Assembly (NCBI RefSeq): GCF_900095385.1
Contig: NZ_FMID01000060.1
Coordinates: forward strand, 1 to 64,000
Source of the DNA: Methanoculleus chikugoensis
Lineage (GTDB): Archaea; Halobacteriota; Methanomicrobia; Methanomicrobiales; Methanoculleaceae
Direction: 5' to 3'
Length of the DNA stretch: 64,000 nt
Part shown: piece after piece, positions 23,699-36,487 of the stretch
How positions within the stretch are numbered: position 1 is the first letter of the stretch
How the letters are laid out: every line of letters starts with the position of its first letter
Translations under genes and position numbers: made by a program
The notes under the pieces: model-generated
Database searches by the model: none
What the model saw: only the letters and a program-made list of their open reading frames with translations
Told to the model about the DNA's origin: nothing

Positions 23699-24628
23699 TT
23701 ACTTTCTCGCCCGGAAGAGTGCGCCGAGGTCTTCGGGGAGCGTCAGGATGATCGGCTCCAGGTGCAGCCGCTCCATGAACGCCGAGTCGCACATGGAGAA
23801 GGTGTTCGGGTTCAACCGTGCGATGATGGAACAGAAGACACGGAGGCCTTGCACGGCTTTTCCGGGGGCATCAAAGAAGATCGAGGCGTTGAAGGCGTGG
23901 GTGCCGAGGCTCCGGTAAAAGTCGACGACCCGGAGGATACCCCCGGCCAACGGTTCGACATACGGTTCGAGGTCGTCAAGCGTCGATATCGGGAGAATTC
24001 CCCGCACCTCCCGCTCGCCGAGGGGAACGGGGTTCGCCGACCAGAAGATCTCGTCTTCAAAGAGAAACCGCTCCGAGCAACGCTCGCGCTCCACGAGGTC
24101 GTCCCAGTAGAGGCGGCCGCGATCGGCGAGATAGCGGCGGCCGCCGGAGATATAGAGCTCCGCAAGGCGGGTGGGCTCCGCATCGGCGATGCCCTGCAGG
24201 TGCGGGTGGACGATGCTCGCACCCGCCGACGGGAGGTGATTCCAGTTGATGCTTGCATATCCGGGAGACCGAGCAAGGGCCTTTGCCGTTCCGGATATGG
24301 CGTCCGCAAGACACCTCGCATCGAACCGGCCGGGCCCGTGATCGGCCGTGATCACCGTAACCACGTGGCGCCCGGCGAACGGGTAGAGGTTCGGGAACGT
24401 CACGCTCTCCCCGCACCGGAGCCGGCTACCGTCCTCGAACGTCGGGGTGGACGTATCGATAGCACCGGGGCAGAAGGGGCAACCTTCGCGGGATGAGGGC
24501 ATGGCAGGAGCAGCGTCGATCTGCCTCTCAACCCGGACGGGACTGATCCGGCACCGGATGCCGGTGAGAGACTCCCGACGGTACTGGAGAATTCCCCGTT
24601 CCGTCACGATCTCGCGGGTGGTGAACAT
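23699..24628 (-). CDS. Galactose-1-phosphate uridylyltransferase family protein (HIT superfamily)
   Basis: 309 residues. A zinc-type CPFC motif lies at about residues 50-53, and the nucleotidyl-transfer signature GASIVHPHLQG (about 140-150) contains the His-x-His pair with the covalent-intermediate histidine. The protein is therefore a nucleotidyltransferase of the GalT/GalT-like family acting on a sugar phosphate. Several archaeal members act as UTP- or ADP-linked sugar-1-phosphate transferases, so the precise substrate is open. The gene stands alone between the repeat region and mer, with its own likely promoter near 24650 (TATAATAC read rightward gives GTATTATA leftward). Confidence 0.85.
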   Translation of the reverse strand: MFTTREIVTERGILQYRRESLTGIRCRISPVRVERQIDAAPAMPSSREGCPFCPGAIDTSTPTFEDGSRLRCGESVTFPNLYPFAGRHVVTVITADHGPGRFDARCLADAISGTAKALARSPGYASINWNHLPSAGASIVHPHLQGIADAEPTRLAELYISGGRRYLADRGRLYWDDLVERERCSERFLFEDEIFWSANPVPLGEREVRGILPISTLDDLEPYVEPLAGGILRVVDFYRSLGTHAFNASIFFDAPGKAVQGLRVFCSIIARLNPNTFSMCDSAFMERLHLEPIILTLPEDLGALFRARK

Positions 24629-26130: not shown

Positions 26131-28083
26131 ATGCGAGTGCTGGCGATAGGGTTGGGCGGCGCCGGGTCGCGGATTGTGGATCAGCTCTACGACCATGACC
26201 AGCGTAGCAGAGTTTACTGCATGAGTGCGGTAGCGATCGACATCGACCCGAACTCCCTGCTGCAACTCCGCCATCTCCCGAACCCTGCAAGGATCTTCTT
26301 CCCGCGGGTCGATATCCTGGATCACGCTCATGTCACGGACGTGATCGATATCGAGGAGGTGATGACCCGGCTCCAGAGCATGGATACGATGGAGATCGAC
26401 GCCATCCTCCTCTGCTGCGGGCTCGGGGGCAGCGTCATCGACATCGCGCCGCTCATCATCGCCGAGATCCGGAAGTCTTACGTGGAGCCGATCTTCGCTC
26501 TCGCCGTACTTCCGTGCCTGGAAGAGGGGAAACGGGTCTCGGCCAAGGCCGCCGACGACCTCGACGCGCTCCAGGGACTCGTCGATGCCGTCATCCTCTT
26601 CGACAACGAGACCTGGTCGCAGAAGATCAAGGCGGCCGCCGCTGCAGCCGGGACCGAGAACACCAGCGTCATGGACCAGCTGCGCCAGATCCCCACGGGA
26701 TCGGACCCGAGAACACACTACAACATGCTCAACGAGAGGATTGCACGCCAGATCGGCCTCCTTCTTCGCGCCGGAGAATTCAACGAATCGGGGCTCGACG
26801 TCGCCGAGGTCGTTCTGGATGCCGGAGAGGTCTTGAACACCCTGAAAGGAAACGGGTTCGTCGCGGTCGGCTACGCCACGGAGCGACTGCCGACCGGATG
26901 GCTGAACATCTTCCACCGGCGGCAGTCGCTGAAAGACTTCATCCAGGGTTCGCAGGAGAAGGCCGCACGGATCATATCCCTCGCCAAAAAAGCGGTTTAT
27001 GAAGACGTATCGGTTCCCTGCGATCTCACGAGCGCCGACAAGGCGCTGGTGTTGATCGCCGGGCCTTCGGCCGAACTCTCGATGAAGGGGTTCCAGACCG
27101 TCCGAAAGTGGATCGATCGGAGCATCGCCGGACTCGAGATGCGATCGGGGGACTATCCGGTGAAGAGCACGTCGTTTGTGGGGATCATCATTGTGCTCTC
27201 GGGGCTCACCAACATCCCCCGGGTCGAGGAACTCCGGGATATCCGGACGGAATACCAGCTTGAGTGCGAGGAAGAACGGCTGAGGGGAGAAGAGGAGGCG
27301 CGGCTGCGTGAAGAGGAGGAAGGCCTGGCGGCCGGTGCCGTCTCCGAAGTGCCGGATGACGCCGGTGTCCCCGGGTTTGCCTCGCCTCTTGAGTCGGCAT
27401 ATCTTGAGGAGATCGGGTACATGGCAGAACCAACCACACCGGAGAAGGATGAGATGATCTCGCTCCCGGGCAGCGGCGGGAGCGACCGGAAACGCAGGGA
27501 CGACACCATCGTTATGCTCCCGAAAGCCGAGAAGAAGCAGGATGACGGGGTCGTCGTCCTTCCCCCGAAGCCGGGCGGGAAGGAGATCGATCTCACCGGT
27601 TCGGCCTCGGTCACCTCGTCGGTGCCCGCCCCGAAGAACTCCACCTTCGGCCTCAAAGGGATCGCTATCGAGAAGACGGGGCCAAAAGACGATGCGGTAA
27701 CATATTCCACATCCTTAAAACCCGTGCAGCGGCCGAAAGACGGATCGCTTTCGGCGGATGCGGGCACCCTGGATCACGGAATGCAGCGGCCGAAAGACGG
27801 GGTGTTCACCGGGGACCACGTTACGCTCGGTCAGGGGATGCAGCGGCCGAAGGACAGCCTCTTCGAGGAGGCCGGCCTGCACATGCGCGAAGGGGCACCC
27901 TTACCGAAGGACGATTCGCTGGGCCAGATCGGCCGGGGATTTGCCCGGCCCGGCCCCCGCCCGAAAGAGGTCGATCCCTCGCGCGGAAAACTCGAGGTGA
28001 TCGACGCGGCCGCCCGGCAGAAGAACCGAGACGAAGAGAAGCGATCGGACGACGATACGGACGGCGGGATCACCTGGCTGTAG
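26131..28083 (+). CDS. Divergent FtsZ/tubulin-superfamily protein with repetitive tail
   Basis: 650 residues. The N-terminal 360 or so form a GTPase-like fold: T1 loop IGLGGAGSR (6-14), helix-strand pattern as in FtsZ, DAVILFDNETW (about 152-162, matching the FtsZ VI-x-N region) and LNERIARQIGLLLRAGEFN. The T4 loop, GGGTGTG in FtsZ, reads CCGLGGSV (95-102), and the catalytic T7 loop has N218 and D223 but Ser where the first Asp should be. A charged segment (Glu/Arg-rich, about 390-415) precedes a 230-residue tail with five 19-residue units containing PKD. It is probably a nucleotide-binding cytoskeletal protein, perhaps with weak or no GTP hydrolysis. ATG 26131 has a good ribosome-binding site. 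Confidence 0.8.
   Translation: MRVLAIGLGGAGSRIVDQLYDHDQRSRVYCMSAVAIDIDPNSLLQLRHLPNPARIFFPRVDILDHAHVTDVIDIEEVMTRLQSMDTMEIDAILLCCGLGGSVIDIAPLIIAEIRKSYVEPIFALAVLPCLEEGKRVSAKAADDLDALQGLVDAVILFDNETWSQKIKAAAAAAGTENTSVMDQLRQIPTGSDPRTHYNMLNERIARQIGLLLRAGEFNESGLDVAEVVLDAGEVLNTLKGNGFVAVGYATERLPTGWLNIFHRRQSLKDFIQGSQEKAARIISLAKKAVYEDVSVPCDLTSADKALVLIAGPSAELSMKGFQTVRKWIDRSIAGLEMRSGDYPVKSTSFVGIIIVLSGLTNIPRVEELRDIRTEYQLECEEERLRGEEEARLREEEEGLAAGAVSEVPDDAGVPGFASPLESAYLEEIGYMAEPTTPEKDEMISLPGSGGSDRKRRDDTIVMLPKAEKKQDDGVVVLPPKPGGKEIDLTGSASVTSSVPAPKNSTFGLKGIAIEKTGPKDDAVTYSTSLKPVQRPKDGSLSADAGTLDHGMQRPKDGVFTGDHVTLGQGMQRPKDSLFEEAGLHMREGAPLPKDDSLGQIGRGFARPGPRPKEVDPSRGKLEVIDAAARQKNRDEEKRSDDDTDGGITWL
27727..28011 (+). 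repeat. Five in-frame 57-nt repeats in the FtsZ-like tail
   Basis: Units begin at 27727, 27784, 27841, 27898 and 27955, exactly 57 nt (19 codons) apart. The first three open with QRPKD (CAGCGGCCGAAAGAC or near), the fourth with PLPKDD and the fifth with PRPKEV. Only the first five or six residues of each unit are conserved; the linkers differ. A degenerate GPKDD copy precedes them. Regular spacing of a short motif suggests multivalent binding. Confidence 0.8.
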
Positions 28084-29481: not shown

Positions 29482-29492
29482 GCTTAATAACT
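29482..29492. promoter_or_regulatory. Shared A/T-rich promoter between dUTPase and tRNA-Arg
   Basis: GCTTAATAAC reads as a TATA-like element in both directions: about 25 nt to the dUTPase ATG leftward (29457) and about 25 nt to the tRNA-Arg 5' end rightward (29513). The 55-bp gap between the genes has no other candidate. Confidence 0.45.
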
Positions 29493-32400
29493 TACGATAG
29501 AAACCGAAGAGGGGACCCATGGGGTAGTGGACATCCTTTTGGGCTTCGAACCCAAGGACGCGGGTTCAATTCCCGCTGGGTCCGTTGTTTTTTGGGGTGT
29601 GCGGATCACGCACCCGAATATCGTTGCATGCGCCGGATGTACGATCTGTGCTGCTCTCCGATCTCTCCTGGGTGTGAAGAGCAGTCGGGCATCGGGTACG
29701 TTGCCTGCAGAGGCGCGGACCCGGATCAGGTATTCGCCCGGCGGGAGTGCCCGGGCATCGAGAGAGGCGGTTTCACCGGTCACGGTCTCGAACCGCACCG
29801 GGGAGAGGCCGCCGTCGTTCGAGTACTCCACAGACTCGGTCAGGGTCCCCGCTCCGGTGTAGGAGAGATCCCAGGCAGCGGAGAGGATCTCCCTGACCGG
29901 TTCCGTGCAGGTGTAGCGCGGGTTTGAGAGCGTGAGCGTCGCGGAGCCGAAACCCGTGTTGCTGAGATCCGGCACGGCGGTGATGAGGGTGTCGGGGAGG
30001 GGGAGTTTTGCCGCGTCGTTGAACGTGATCGTTGAGCCGGGCCCGAAGACGTTGATGTTGCCGTCGGTCAGCGCCCTCAGGCGGAACGTCGCCTCCCAGG
30101 TCTGACCGAGGTGAACCGTCCCGATCGCGAACTTCAGGTTGCGGCCGTCGCTCCAGTCGTCGGTCTGGTTGATGGTCGTCGGGGAGATGATCGCATGATT
30201 CCCGGTCTGGTTCTCGACCCAGCTCGTGATGACGGTCGAGACCCCGTCTTCGTAAACGTAGGAGAATACGCCGGACCCTTCCCGGTCTTCACCGTTGACC
30301 TGGACCGTGCTGAAGTCGAGGCTCATCGTGGTGTTGACCCCGGCCTCCGTCTTGAGGAGCCCGGCAATATCGGTGTAGATCGGCCCCAGGGCATCCGGAG
30401 CCGGCGCGTGGTAGTATCTCCCGCCGGTCGATTCGGCGATGCTCCGGAGCGTCGATCTCGCGTCGTCGGAGAGGCTCTCCGAGTACGAGATCGTGAAGAT
30501 GCGGATGTCGTTGTCCGCAGCGTAAGTTGCCAGGTTCTGCCAGTTCGAGGGGAGATCCGCGTACCGGTAGTAACTCCGGGCCAGTGTGTCGTAGCCTTCC
30601 GGCGAGGGAGGGGTCGAACCCGAGCCCCGGGCAAGCGGGTCGCCGTACCAGTTGTAATCGCCGTCGGAGAGGAGCACCACGGCTTTTACCGAATCGTCGC
30701 CTGCAGCGGCGACCAGGTGGTCGATCGAGACCTTCAGCCCGTGCCGGAGCGGGGTGCCGTGGTCGGGGACGATGCCGTCGAGCGCACCCTTCACCGCCGG
30801 GAGATCGCGGGTGAGCCCGAGATCGAGCGTTGCGTAGTCGTCGTATGTCTTCGGGTAGGTGTAGTCGTTATCGATCTCGTGCGTGCCGATGCCGGAGTTG
30901 GCACCGGGACGCGAGATGGATCCTTTACGCCCGAACGAGACGGCGGCCGCGCGATCATGGTTCTCCGAGAACTGATCCACGAACGCCTTTGCCGCTTCGC
31001 GGACGGAGTGCATCCGGTCGGGGTCGTCGTAGAGCATGCTCCCCGACCGGTCGGTGCAGATCACCACATCGATCGGGTCCGGCCGGAGCGCCCACCCATC
31101 GCCTTTGAGCCGGATGGTAACATCCACCGTGTCGTTCACCGCCACCGTCCCGGGAGAGACCTCCGCCTCCACCGAGAGGAAGGGGTAGTTCTCCCAGGCC
31201 AGGGGTATCGTCCGTGTGGTGTCGTTCCACGTGGCGACGACATCGCACCCGCCCCTCGCCGCAGCGCTCCAGCGCGGATCGGTCCGGTCGGTGGTGAACG
31301 TGCCGGGGTAGAACCGGACGGCCGCGTAGCCGTCGTCATCGGTCTTGGCAGAGGACGCAGAGAGATAGGGGGCGGCGACCTGCAGGAATTCGCCGGCATC
31401 GATGTTCCGGACGGCGAAGGTCACGTTCTCTCCGGCGACCGGGTTTCCTTTCACATCGACGACCTTTGCACGGAGAGTTGCCGGCCCTGAGCCGGGCACG
31501 TCGAGGCTCGGCATCGACTGGGGGTTTGCCGAGAGGAGCATATCCACAGGGGCGGTGTGGACAAACTCAACGATCTGCGATGCCGTCACGCTTGCGTTGT
31601 CCACGGCTGTTGCGTTGACAGTGATCCTGCCGGTGGTATCCTTCGGGCCGTAGGTGAGGCGGGCGACGCCCGAGCCGTTTGTCGTCAGGACGGTGCCTTC
31701 CCCTGCAAGGGAGGTGGCGACCCGGATATCCCGGCCGGCTGCGGGGTTGCCCCAGGAGTCGAAGAGCCGGTAGGTCAGGGTGAACGTGCTCTCTCCGTCG
31801 GCAGGCTGGTAGGGCTCCGGGTCGGCATCGGGGTTGACCGAGACGGCGATAGCGGCCGGGTCTCCGGTCGGGAGGCCGCGGATGGAGATGTAGCGATCGA
31901 TCCCGCCGGAGAGAGCGGTTATCCGGACGATGTTCTCACCGACGGCCCGGCCGGTTCTGAAAGGCACCTGGACGTGTCCGGTGGCGTTGGCTGTCCGCTC
32001 TATCCCGGGCACCGGCGCCCCCAGATCGTCGATGAAGACGGCATCGTCGTCGACCGAGCCGACGCTGAAGCGGACGGTCTCGGTGCCCCGGGTATCGTCC
32101 ACCGGGTTGCCGTACCGGTCGGCCAGCCCCACGGTGATGACGGTGACGTCACCTGCGGCAACCTCGAACTCGTAGTCGAGGTAGGTGACGCGGCCGGCCG
32201 GGCCGTGGTCGATCGGGAGGGGGATCGTCTCCTCTACAGCCCCGGCTCGTGCGGTTATTACGGCGACGCCGCTCGTCCTGCCGGGGATGAACACCGTGGT
32301 CGCGGTTCCGGATGCGCCGGTGGTGACGGTTGCGGGCGATATGCGCCCGAAGACCGGGTCGACCTCGAACGCCACGGTGCAGTTCTCGATGGGCATCCCG

Positions 32401-32564
32401 CTCTCATCGAAGGCCTGCACGGTTATTTCAGCGGGCTCGGTTCCACCCGCCGCCAGCCAACCGGCACCGCTCGATATGGTGATCCGGTCAGGATCCGTCG
32501 CACTCGCCGCAGGAACGATCAGGCCGAGCAGGATCGTGAGGAGGAACAATTTTTTAAAATTCAT
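29484..32564 (-). CDS. Large Ig-like/VWA cell-surface protein A (C-terminus probably frameshifted)
   Basis: A signal peptide (MNFKKLFLLTILLGLIVPAAS) is followed by about three Big-1/Ig-like domains, then a von Willebrand A domain with MIDAS motif CTDRSGSM and a further beta-rich region. It is a paralog of the protein at 33392-36487. ATG 32564 fits the TATA-like TTATATATA just upstream (32592-32602). Near the 3' end family similarity stops after LIRVRAS..LLFTP; in the +1 frame it resumes as HRSYIRRM and reaches a stop at 29606-29608. The frame as read continues antisense through tRNA-Arg to 29484. A one-base indel or a recent frameshift is likely. Probably secreted or surface-bound; no C-terminal anchor is visible. 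Confidence 0.8.
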   Translation of the reverse strand: MNFKKLFLLTILLGLIVPAASATDPDRITISSGAGWLAAGGTEPAEITVQAFDESGMPIENCTVAFEVDPVFGRISPATVTTGASGTATTVFIPGRTSGVAVITARAGAVEETIPLPIDHGPAGRVTYLDYEFEVAAGDVTVITVGLADRYGNPVDDTRGTETVRFSVGSVDDDAVFIDDLGAPVPGIERTANATGHVQVPFRTGRAVGENIVRITALSGGIDRYISIRGLPTGDPAAIAVSVNPDADPEPYQPADGESTFTLTYRLFDSWGNPAAGRDIRVATSLAGEGTVLTTNGSGVARLTYGPKDTTGRITVNATAVDNASVTASQIVEFVHTAPVDMLLSANPQSMPSLDVPGSGPATLRAKVVDVKGNPVAGENVTFAVRNIDAGEFLQVAAPYLSASSAKTDDDGYAAVRFYPGTFTTDRTDPRWSAAARGGCDVVATWNDTTRTIPLAWENYPFLSVEAEVSPGTVAVNDTVDVTIRLKGDGWALRPDPIDVVICTDRSGSMLYDDPDRMHSVREAAKAFVDQFSENHDRAAAVSFGRKGSISRPGANSGIGTHEIDNDYTYPKTYDDYATLDLGLTRDLPAVKGALDGIVPDHGTPLRHGLKVSIDHLVAAAGDDSVKAVVLLSDGDYNWYGDPLARGSGSTPPSPEGYDTLARSYYRYADLPSNWQNLATYAADNDIRIFTISYSESLSDDARSTLRSIAESTGGRYYHAPAPDALGPIYTDIAGLLKTEAGVNTTMSLDFSTVQVNGEDREGSGVFSYVYEDGVSTVITSWVENQTGNHAIISPTTINQTDDWSDGRNLKFAIGTVHLGQTWEATFRLRALTDGNINVFGPGSTITFNDAAKLPLPDTLITAVPDLSNTGFGSATLTLSNPRYTCTEPVREILSAAWDLSYTGAGTLTESVEYSNDGGLSPVRFETVTGETASLDARALPPGEYLIRVRASAGNVPDARLLFTPRRDRRAAQIVHPAHATIFGCVIRTPQKTTDPAGIEPASLGSKPKRMSTTPWVPSSVSIVSY
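29513..29584 (+). tRNA. tRNA-Arg (anticodon TCG)
   Basis: A complete cloverleaf: acceptor GGACCCA / TGGGTCC, anticodon stem TTGGG / CCCAA around the loop CTTCGAA (anticodon TCG, reading CGA), and a T arm with GCGGGTTCAATTCCCGC. The 3' CCA is not encoded. T-runs follow at 29585-29593 as terminator. The tRNA lies antisense to the apparent 3' end of the large VWA protein gene. Confidence 0.95.
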
Positions 32565-33056
32565 ACTGAGATCAGGGAGCCGTGATCCCATGCAATATAT
32601 ATAAGAGTTTTCATTTGATTCGGATTTTTGGGTGCGGCGAAAAAATACATATCATCATCGGAATAGCCAAAAACCAGGGGATTGTATCACAATTTTTCAT
32701 TAAAACCGGGACTGGACAACCACCTCGGCCACGCAACCATGATATAGGGATCATTTCAGGTAATTTTCACCCATCGTAAATCCACAAATCAATCGAAATT
32801 GACCCAATCCAACAATTTAGCCGCGAATACACAGGTTAAAATAGGACATGCCACCGGAAGAGCTGCGAACGTTCCGCGAGAGATAAATACAGGCATGTGC
32901 AGGTAACCGGAGGTGCCGGGAGAGCGAACCCTGCAGGGCCCTGTGCCCCGGGGGGCGTATCCGGTGAAGATAACGGTTGAGCCCTGCACGGAAGAGGGCG
33001 GGAGTACGGGCCGCGGGGGTCTTCCTCTCCCGTGAAAAAAAGAATGACGGGGTTCT
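32565..33056. other. Gene-free stretch upstream of surface protein A
   Basis: It contains the TATA element for protein A (32592-32602), A/T-rich sequence to about 32850, then GC-rich sequence with a GCAGGGCCCTG-type palindrome near 32930-32945. No gene, RNA or repeat is recognised. Confidence 0.4.
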
Positions 33057-33391: not shown

Positions 33392-36300
33392 TCAGCTGAT
33401 TTTGATGTATGCCCGGTCGCTTGCCCCCACCAGAATGGAATCCGCCCATGTAATCTCATTACTCGCACCATCATCGTCAGGTGTGATCTCCTGGGCAAAA
33501 ACCCGTATCTTGTACCACCCTTCCTTCTCCCCGAGGTTAAGAGTGGTCGAATACGTGCCGTTAACATTGGTGTCTGCGGGATGGTGCAGCGTATCGGCCT
33601 CGTGCCAGTTGCCGTCCCACCAGATATCGTCCTGACTGAACTGGTACATGATCTTCTGGGTCACGGACTGGTTTCCGGTGTAGTTAAGGCCCCAGGTGGG
33701 GACGAGAATGCCAGGCTCGTCCGTGTTGAGAGATTCCTGAGTCAACCAGATCTGTGCCGCGGCAGCGCCGGAATCACTGAGGTTATGGCTGGCGGTGATG
33801 AATGTATGGGGAAGACCCAGTTCCGTCGGGCCCACGCTGCCGTTGAAGTGGATAACGGAATTATTGCCGAAGATGTCGATGTTTCCCTCTTTCAAGACCT
33901 TCAAACGGAAGGAGGCTTCCCAGGTCTGGTCGAGGTAGATGTCCCCAACTTCAAAGCCGAGGTTCTGGCCATCCCAGCTCCCGTTCTGCTCCTGATCCTC
34001 CCAGACCGGACCCCAGATGATATTCGTTGTGTCATTCGTCCAATACTTGACCATCCGGGTCGACACAGGATACTCCGGATCATACTCTAATGCATCGTTG
34101 GTAGATGTGGTAACATCATTGATATCGATCATGACAGGGTCAAACGTCAGGCTCATCGTGGTGTCGACACCGGCCGCCTCCTGGAGGTTCCGGGCAATCT
34201 TGGTGTAGATCTCGGCAAGGTCATCGCCGGTAGGCGCATGGTGATGCTCCCCACCGGTCGCATTTGCAAGGACTTCCATTGTATTCCATGTTGGGCCGTC
34301 CTCCTCGATATCGTCTGAGAACGATATCGTGTATAACCGGATGTTGTTCTTGCTCGCATAGACAGACAGATTTTGTTCATCGGCCTCAAGATCAGAGAAA
34401 TACCTATAATCCGACTTCTCAGCAAGCGGGTCCTCATCTCCGTAATACTCGCCATCGCCAAGAATAACAACCGCTTTCACGGCATTGGAACGACCGGTTT
34501 CATTCAACTTGGTGATCGCTCTGTAAATACCGTAGCGCATAGGCGTCCCCCTACTAGGCGTAATCCCACCGATGGCGGCGTCGATTTTTGATCGGTCGCT
34601 GCTCAGATTTAGATCGACGGTTGCTTCTTCATCGTAAGTCCTGTCCGGAGCATAGTGCTCTTCCCAATAATCCTCGTCATCCCAGGTCGCAGATATCCAT
34701 TTCCAACCATCCCGGTACCCTTCATCCTGACCAAGCCATCCGCCAACATCCTTGCTATACTCAACGAGATCTGTACCCAAGCCTCCAAAAGACACAAGCC
34801 CAAGTTGATCGGTTCCATGATCAAAATTGCTATTGAAGATTCTGGAGGCATCCATCACCGCAACCATACGATCGGGATAATCCTTCAACATACTGCTCGA
34901 CCGATCGGTGCAGAGCATCACGTCGATCGGCTTCTTCTGCAGCGCCCAGCCATCGCCGATCAACCGGATTGTGACGCTGACGTTATCGGTCACATTGACC
35001 ACCTGTGGCTCGACCGTGACGTTGACGCTGAGGTAGGGGTAGTTCCTGAAGGACACTATAGTGTCTTCCCGCATACCCTCCCATTCGGCCTGGATCGTTG
35101 CACTCCCCGAGGCCGTATCATTGTACTGGAGATGTGACGTATCCCGGGTGAAGTTCCCCGGGTGGAATTTGATCGTGGCAAATCCGTCCCCATCAGTCAT
35201 GGCAACAAGAGGTGCACCATCTTTCTTGGAAGTGGAACTGCCATTCGATATCCGGGGCTCGGCGGTCATATTATTCCCCTCGCGGTCGAACCCGGTGATC
35301 CTGAACGAAACACTCTGGTCCCGAACGGGATTGCCCTTCGAGTCCATCACTTTCGCCCTGATCGAAGAGAAAATATCGCCATTTACATCCCCGCTCGCGA
35401 TGGTCTGGGGGACGGCAGTAAGAACTATACCAGTCGGGTCGGCGCTATAAAAGCCCACTTTCTGCGTACATGAAACGCTGCTGTTGTTGACGGCAGTCGC
35501 GGTTATCTCTGCGACACCGATCCGGTCAAGCGATGTATACGTGATCTGCGCCTTACCCATACTGTTTGTTCTGGTGAACAACTCCTCCGAATTCAGGAAA
35601 CCGGATATCGGCTGGACGTTTACTCGTATCTCCCGATCACCTGCGGGGTTACCATACTCGTCATAGAGAGCGTAGGTGATGGTGAACTGTTCACCCAGCG
35701 GCAGTTCGGGGTAGTAATCGGGGTCCGAATCCTCGCCTTTTGGAGAGACAAACTGGTAAATCTTCGACGGCTTTCCATTCGCAAGCCCGGTGATGGTCAG
35801 GGAGCGTGGCCCGATATTTCCGGGAAATGTTACATAAACAATATTTTCCCCGGCCATCGTGTCGACCTGGAGCGTTGCGGTGGCGTTCCCGACAGAATCC
35901 ACTGGCACTTTGACCTCATCCATGCCGTTGGCGAACGTCGCACCTCCCGTCGGCGAGCCCACCATGAACGTCACCTCCTCAGCCATGCTCCGGTTGTCCA
36001 CCACATTTCCATACCGGTCCACCATCCGGACGGTGATATTCGTCTCCCCCCCGGCGGTCACTTCCGGGTCGTACCAAAGATAGGCAATCTTATGTGGTGT
36101 CGCGTGGTCGATCTCCTGCTCGCCGCTGTCGGTCAGAGGCGCGTGCAGTTCCTCGTGCGACACCGTCGCCGTGATCGTCGCGGTCCCGCTCCGCGTCCCG
36201 TGCCGGAAAATCGCCGTGGCCTTTCCGTCATCCCCTGTGACCACGTACGTGCGCGAGATACTCCCATACTCATCATCATCCACCGCAAGATAGACAGCAG

Positions 36301-36487
36301 CACCGACAACCGGAGTGGCAAGGGTGCCGTTTGTGACCTTCACCGTGACGGTCGAGGTCCCCCCGCTCCCCGCCGTCAGCCACGGCGTATCGGTACTGAG
36401 GGTAATATTGTCAGGTATCAGCGCCCCGGCCGGGGCCGCAAGAAAGAGCAAACCCACCACCAGGCACGCATACGTCCATCCGTTCAT
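33392..36487 (-). CDS. Large Ig-like/VWA cell-surface protein B
   Basis: 1031 residues. A signal peptide (about 1-22) is followed by invasin-type Ig domains (about 25-120, 240-345, 350-480), then a VWA domain with MIDAS DRSSS (D528, S530, S532). After it comes a beta-rich tail ending GASDRAYIKIS. The VWA domain binds divalent metal and a protein partner; such proteins mediate adhesion or surface assembly. TTTATAAG near 36521-36530 gives a short leader to ATG 36487. No PGF-CTERM or membrane anchor is visible, so it may associate non-covalently with the S-layer. It is a full-length paralog of the protein at 29484-32564. Confidence 0.87.
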   Translation of the reverse strand: MNGWTYACLVVGLLFLAAPAGALIPDNITLSTDTPWLTAGSGGTSTVTVKVTNGTLATPVVGAAVYLAVDDDEYGSISRTYVVTGDDGKATAIFRHGTRSGTATITATVSHEELHAPLTDSGEQEIDHATPHKIAYLWYDPEVTAGGETNITVRMVDRYGNVVDNRSMAEEVTFMVGSPTGGATFANGMDEVKVPVDSVGNATATLQVDTMAGENIVYVTFPGNIGPRSLTITGLANGKPSKIYQFVSPKGEDSDPDYYPELPLGEQFTITYALYDEYGNPAGDREIRVNVQPISGFLNSEELFTRTNSMGKAQITYTSLDRIGVAEITATAVNNSSVSCTQKVGFYSADPTGIVLTAVPQTIASGDVNGDIFSSIRAKVMDSKGNPVRDQSVSFRITGFDREGNNMTAEPRISNGSSTSKKDGAPLVAMTDGDGFATIKFHPGNFTRDTSHLQYNDTASGSATIQAEWEGMREDTIVSFRNYPYLSVNVTVEPQVVNVTDNVSVTIRLIGDGWALQKKPIDVMLCTDRSSSMLKDYPDRMVAVMDASRIFNSNFDHGTDQLGLVSFGGLGTDLVEYSKDVGGWLGQDEGYRDGWKWISATWDDEDYWEEHYAPDRTYDEEATVDLNLSSDRSKIDAAIGGITPSRGTPMRYGIYRAITKLNETGRSNAVKAVVILGDGEYYGDEDPLAEKSDYRYFSDLEADEQNLSVYASKNNIRLYTISFSDDIEEDGPTWNTMEVLANATGGEHHHAPTGDDLAEIYTKIARNLQEAAGVDTTMSLTFDPVMIDINDVTTSTNDALEYDPEYPVSTRMVKYWTNDTTNIIWGPVWEDQEQNGSWDGQNLGFEVGDIYLDQTWEASFRLKVLKEGNIDIFGNNSVIHFNGSVGPTELGLPHTFITASHNLSDSGAAAAQIWLTQESLNTDEPGILVPTWGLNYTGNQSVTQKIMYQFSQDDIWWDGNWHEADTLHHPADTNVNGTYSTTLNLGEKEGWYKIRVFAQEITPDDDGASNEITWADSILVGASDRAYIKIS

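Follow-up and report, generated by a model that had tools for sequence, protein, structure and literature searches.

A putative pseudo-GTPase paralog of CetZ in Methanomicrobiales, with its T7 loop retained and its phosphate loops lost

The window studied here, a stretch of 64,000 nucleotides from the genome of Methanoculleus chikugoensis, carries on its plus strand an open reading frame (26131-28083) which starts with the ATG at 26131, ends with the stop codon at 28081-28083 and encodes a 650-aa CetZ-like protein. This protein is probably a pseudo-GTPase and is called pseudo-CetZ throughout. Its features, with window coordinates, are the following:

26131..28083, plus strand: putative pseudo-GTPase CetZ-like protein, 650 aa (Pfam, PDB match, AlphaFold2/Foldseek)
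26146..26172, plus strand: T1 loop IGLGGAGSR, residues 6-14, kept (GGAGxR where canonical CetZ has GQAGGK)
26239..26247, plus strand: T2, D37-x-D39 (N37-T-A39 in canonical CetZ), two conserved acids near the phosphate site
26323..26340, plus strand: site of the deleted T3, the gamma-phosphate loop GxGTDNxxG of canonical CetZ, absent from all orthologs
26419..26442, plus strand: T4 remnant GLGGSVID, residues 97-104, aligned with GLGGGTGSGG of canonical CetZ
26599..26616, plus strand: T6, FDNETW, residues 157-162, with the guanine-contacting Asn159 kept (129/129 sequences covering the site)
26707..26766, plus strand: H7 helix, residues 193-212, with the guanine-contacting Asn201 kept (129/130)
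26713..27243, plus strand: CetZ_C domain, residues 195-371, where constraint on the protein is strongest (Pfam, dN/dS)
26812..26829, plus strand: T7, V228-L229-D230-A231-G232-E233, equivalent to NxDxxD of FtsZ and VVDSSE of CetZ, both acids kept
27271..28050, plus strand: linker of low complexity that evolves fast and contains RPKD repeats; in orthologs its length varies between almost nil and about 770 aa
27961..27999, plus strand: tail motif PKEVDPSRGKLEV, conserved in the window's family and some other lineages
28051..28080, plus strand: conserved C-terminal tip DDTDGGITWL (consensus DD[ILF]xW[I] in ortholog tails)

The neighbouring gene is nrpR-like (PF01995, 1.3e-68, plus HTH_12), as a preliminary description of this DNA had proposed. 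The two genes are convergent, and the 3' ends of pseudo-cetZ (plus strand) and nrpR-like (minus strand) overlap by ~14 nt at 28070-28083 of the window. Synteny around the gene is conserved across the order of the window's genome, the methanogenic Methanomicrobiales (hereafter the order): rpl3-tfx-mtd-(galT-like)-mer flank it on one side, nrpR-dcd on the opposite side, and even the most divergent members are thereby tied to one ortholog group. Because mer is divergent (in 33 of 40 loci) and nrpR is convergent, the neighbourhood establishes orthology and no operon, and mtd, mer, Tfx, NrpR and dcd were discarded as clues to function. The locus matches a Methanoculleus cluster of a metatranscriptome study (PMC12008871), in which a 'CetZ' together with mer, mtd and VWA proteins responds to culture motion; with mer on the opposite strand in the window, it is not a simple operon. 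The gene at 23702-24628 (minus strand) has no Pfam match at E<=0.001 and resembles galactose-1-phosphate uridylyltransferases (HPHLQ motif); 31 of 40 loci retain a gene of this kind in the interval from mtd to mer. Two adjacent genes for large Ig/VWA surface proteins (29487-32591 and 33395-36487, minus strand) match the same homologs in related loci, and this protein type is found downstream of dcd in 17 of 40 of them.

A Pfam search of pseudo-CetZ up to E=1 returned a CetZ_C domain (E=3.4e-46, 157 bits, cut-off 21.6) and, also above cut-off, a Tubulin GTPase domain (E=3.8e-10) alone, with no match to a Tubulin_2-type domain. The best sequence match in the PDB is CetZ1 from H. volcanii (5.6e-55), and core identity to named relatives is up to 94%. 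An AlphaFold2 model of residues 1-380, built from 76 orthologs (pLDDT 82, pTM 0.84), matches CetZ1 (4B46) in Foldseek with E=1.5e-31 and a TM-score of 0.88, and supersedes a 29-sequence model with a poor C-terminal half (pLDDT 64, Foldseek rmsd 11). The tubulin fold on which the preliminary description depended is predicted by this model, and as a complete tubulin/CetZ fold like that of CetZ1. In phylogenetic trees pseudo-CetZ falls with CetZs and not with FtsZ, on a deep branch beside the canonical CetZs. It shares with CetZs the CetZ_C domain, the predicted fold, the phylogenetic position and the T7 pattern VxDxx[ED]; T3 and T4 are not intact, and we have therefore filed it as a divergent pseudo-GTPase paralog and not as a canonical CetZ. 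Judged from its sequence, it is a divergent CetZ-lineage paralog within the tubulin superfamily.

Membership of FtsZ was rejected, given an equivalog score (NCBIfam ftsZ, TIGR00065) of 34 against a cut-off of 295 bits. The resemblance to FtsZl1/FtsZl2 previously suggested was also abandoned, as the GGGTG[ST]G motif of T4 and a Tubulin_2-type match are both missing, and the protein scores 157 bits to CetZ_C and groups with CetZs. The host genome has four tubulin-superfamily genes: two encoding FtsZ, one encoding a canonical CetZ of 388 aa and pseudo-cetZ, the last two not being neighbours (contigs C4 and C30). The other three genes had been overlooked in the preliminary description, as had the long tail of the protein and its conserved tip.

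We then counted residues at the nucleotide-binding loops in 130 distinct orthologs (129 where one sequence does not cover the site). The T1 loop had been correctly recognised as GLGGAGSR, with G7, G9 and G12 present in 129/129 covering sequences and R14 in 127/130, and the DAVILFDNETW segment noted before corresponds to T6. The reported reduction of T4 was borne out, and the entire T3 loop (GVGTDNxxGA in canonical CetZ), whose deletion had gone unnoticed, is missing as well. Neither GGGTG nor T3 occurs in any of the 130 orthologs, so these changes are not due to chance. Read from sequence, T3 and the latter half of T4 are missing from pseudo-CetZ; it is through these loops that the phosphates are gripped and sensed. 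Around the phosphate site, acids at positions 37 (128/130), 39 (117/130) and 104, within the T4 remnant (104/130), stand where canonical CetZ has neutral residues. On the guanine side, P128 (129/129 covering sequences), E132 (128/130), G133, N159 and N201 are near-invariant, and this side of the pocket is kept but remodelled. The earlier view is supported in so far as the protein is a divergent member of the tubulin superfamily, handles nucleotide differently and may not hydrolyse its own GTP.

In filaments of the tubulin superfamily, the GTPase site of one subunit is completed by the T7 acids of the next. The T7 loop had been described as carrying Ser for the first Asp of NxDxxD, which proved incorrect: the loop reads V-L-D-A-G-E, with both acidic positions present as in the canonical V-V-D-S-S-E, and orthologs have D230 in 130/130 and E233 in 129/130, with Asp in the remaining one. 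Nor do CetZs conserve NxDxxD, as had been assumed, since in those examined the first position is mostly Val, with no case of Asn, and the final one holds Glu or Asp. A known family with such T4/T7 variation, a possibility raised at the outset, exists as far as T4 is concerned, its alteration being a stable, order-wide trait of one CetZ subgroup; T7 is unaltered with respect to CetZ. An RxGDxP motif is invariant in the orthologs together with T7 and the tip. Conservation of T7 could be partly structural.

Of 150 genomes from the order, 148 contain a relative, a count in which a few fragmented genomes show only a weaker match of canonical CetZ type; it occurs in 108/108 near-complete genomes and in 35/35 genera, and a search at class level added no lineage beyond the order. 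All 26 genomes of the order in a CetZ_C survey have two or more CetZ_C genes, a canonical CetZ plus a pseudo-CetZ. We calculated dN/dS for the two proteins in six matched genome pairs, for the two protein halves separately. Values for the GTPase half were 0.11-0.29 in pseudo-CetZ and 0.004-0.044 in canonical CetZ, and those for the C-terminal half were 0.075-0.107 and 0.046-0.089, respectively. Constraint is inverted in pseudo-CetZ: it is mainly the nucleotide-binding half that is relaxed, and the half containing T7 and CetZ_C remains under strong purifying selection, although in two of the six pairs its halves differ little.

Beyond residue 380, the low-complexity tails of the orthologs vary in length, the shortest being nearly absent and the longest about 770 aa, and in most lineages they close with the DD[ILF]xW[I] tip. 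Trp occurs within the last six residues of 30 of 35 long tails, compared with 19 Trp among the other 9703 tail residues. In some lineages (genomes of family f5) the core is kept but the long tail has gone, and the Trp tip with it. The tip of canonical CetZs is related and also acidic-hydrophobic, for example DDGIEPLFE; a form close to D[DE]x[IL][ED]PLF, possibly an adaptor-binding peptide, is shared by the canonical proteins of methanogens, of Archaeoglobi-like genomes and of many haloarchaea.

Archaeoglobi-like genomes (family code f8, the taxon being inferred from PMC9856176 and gene content) encode a canonical CetZ and a second CetZ_C protein of ~310 aa (E about 1e-20 to 1e-24), in which no GTPase domain is recognisable and which PF00091 misses. 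Most of T1 and the whole of T4 and T6 are gone from these proteins, as is, in most of them, the H7 Asn; their T7 is V-x-D-T-S-D in 10/10. They form one side of a branch with the pseudo-CetZ family (support 98/98), a grouping recovered from the C-terminal domain alone (SH-aLRT support 100), and the two share changes at sites conserved in canonical CetZ, including Arg to Met at 318 and Thr to Ser at 294. A common origin of the two families is likely from these comparisons but not certain, because long branches meet here and the grouping may be partly an artefact.

Two CetZs per genome have been described in Methanomicrobiales and Archaeoglobales, one of them in a deeper 'non-Halobacteria-like' group which comprises Archaeoglobales, Methanomicrobiales and Methanosarcinales (Brown & Duggin 2023, PMC9856176). 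Judging from the main-text passages on this group, it very probably contains pseudo-CetZ, which would hence already be classified as a CetZ, since two CetZs are reported per genome and the host has pseudo-CetZ and the canonical protein alone. In those passages, and in a term search of the main article, we found no mention of the T3/T4 (GTPase) loss, the inverted constraint or the tail.

We favour, tentatively, a reading in which pseudo-CetZ is a one-faced pseudo-GTPase CetZ that docks on canonical CetZ by way of T7 and serves as its cap or modulator. With T7 kept and the phosphate loops lost, binding to a canonical subunit and triggering of its GTP would be possible in principle, but not normal elongation, which is why a role as cap or regulator of canonical CetZ is proposed; pseudo-GTPase status is itself suggested by the loop loss and the dN/dS values. 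The T7 face would dock on the exposed nucleotide of a canonical CetZ, its acids would trigger the GTP of that subunit, and pseudo-CetZ would present no normal GTP-bearing face to the next one. It might then act as an end-cap, a turnover factor or a heterotypic regulator of the canonical filament, and in most lineages the disordered linker and DD[ILF]xW[I] tip could tether it to an adaptor or membrane partner. Septins, in which pseudo-GTPase subunits are part of a hetero-oligomeric GTPase filament, offer a precedent (PMC10731463). The distance between the two genes in the host genome counts against this reading. The near-invariance of pocket residues outside T3/T4 suggests that the pocket may still bind something, and to speak of no working top face may therefore be too strong. 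It is also possible, though less likely than not, that Methanomicrobiales and Archaeoglobi share an ancient archaeal class of one-faced pseudo-GTPase CetZs, which kept the T7 face, lost the GTP face and are dedicated to capping canonical CetZ filaments or triggering their GTPase.

An alternative which we consider unlikely is that the pocket was repurposed to take another ligand that contains guanine (GDP, GMP or guanosine) or carries a different charge, so that GTP is no longer the fuel and the protein is a scaffold or sensor which self-polymerises or switches. The near-invariant guanine-side residues and the conserved new acids D37, D39 and D104 do not resemble simple decay and would fit this idea; however, it is the GTPase half that is relaxed, nothing of the pocket is left in the Archaeoglobi-like sister although T7 is kept there, and a canonical CetZ accompanies pseudo-CetZ in the surveyed genomes. 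The reading of the preliminary description, a GTP-binding CetZ with slow or no hydrolysis and ordinary polymerisation or copolymerisation, seems to us improbable: the loss of the phosphate-holding T3 and of the GTGSGG of T4 in 130/130 orthologs, the acids in place of neutral residues and the strong local relaxation argue against it, even though T1, T5, T6, H7 and T7 residues are kept and the Pfam Tubulin GTPase domain scores above cut-off. Decay of a paralog without important function, which the dN/dS above that of canonical CetZ and the tail loss in some lineages might suggest, was rejected as extremely improbable on grounds of retention and constraint, given the presence in every near-complete genome and genus, the order-wide synteny, dN/dS well below 1 and the invariant T7, RxGDxP motif and tip.

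In the literature searched we found no protein described as a dedicated partner of CetZ filaments. Pseudo-CetZ, which is universally kept, seems deficient as a GTPase and has its trigger face intact, is a candidate for a factor in the ending or turnover of archaeal tubulin-like filaments. If the favoured reading is true, archaeal CetZ, like the septins, has come to be divided into active and inactive subunits.

FtsZ is known for a layout of core, linker and peptide, and pseudo-CetZ likewise combines a core, a disordered linker and a short conserved tip, although the tips differ (ITWL in pseudo-CetZ, IDFL and EIDFLK in the FtsZs of the host genome). With canonical CetZ (H. volcanii CetZ1/CetZ2, 4B46/4B45) it shares the predicted tubulin fold, CetZ_C, the T7 pattern V-x-D-x-x-E, the guanine-side residues and an acidic-hydrophobic tip, whereas it differs in having no T3, no GTG in T4, a long linker, a relaxed GTPase half, a more FtsZ-like T1/T2 (GGAG, DxD) and a tip with Trp instead of PLF. 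FtsZl1 and FtsZl2 are, like pseudo-CetZ, divergent members of the FtsZ/tubulin superfamily, but it was by an intact GGGTG[ST]G loop that these families were identified, and FtsZl1 differs further in its coiled-coil architecture and its gene partners (Makarova & Koonin 2010, PMC2875224); the same authors noted some archaeal FtsZ paralogs without functional motifs. Septin pseudo-GTPases and actin-related proteins are also nucleotide-deficient paralogs within or at the end of a nucleotide-driven filament, and one-faced CetZs, if the proposal holds, would be the tubulin-side counterpart of actin-related capping proteins, by analogy only, as the folds are unrelated.
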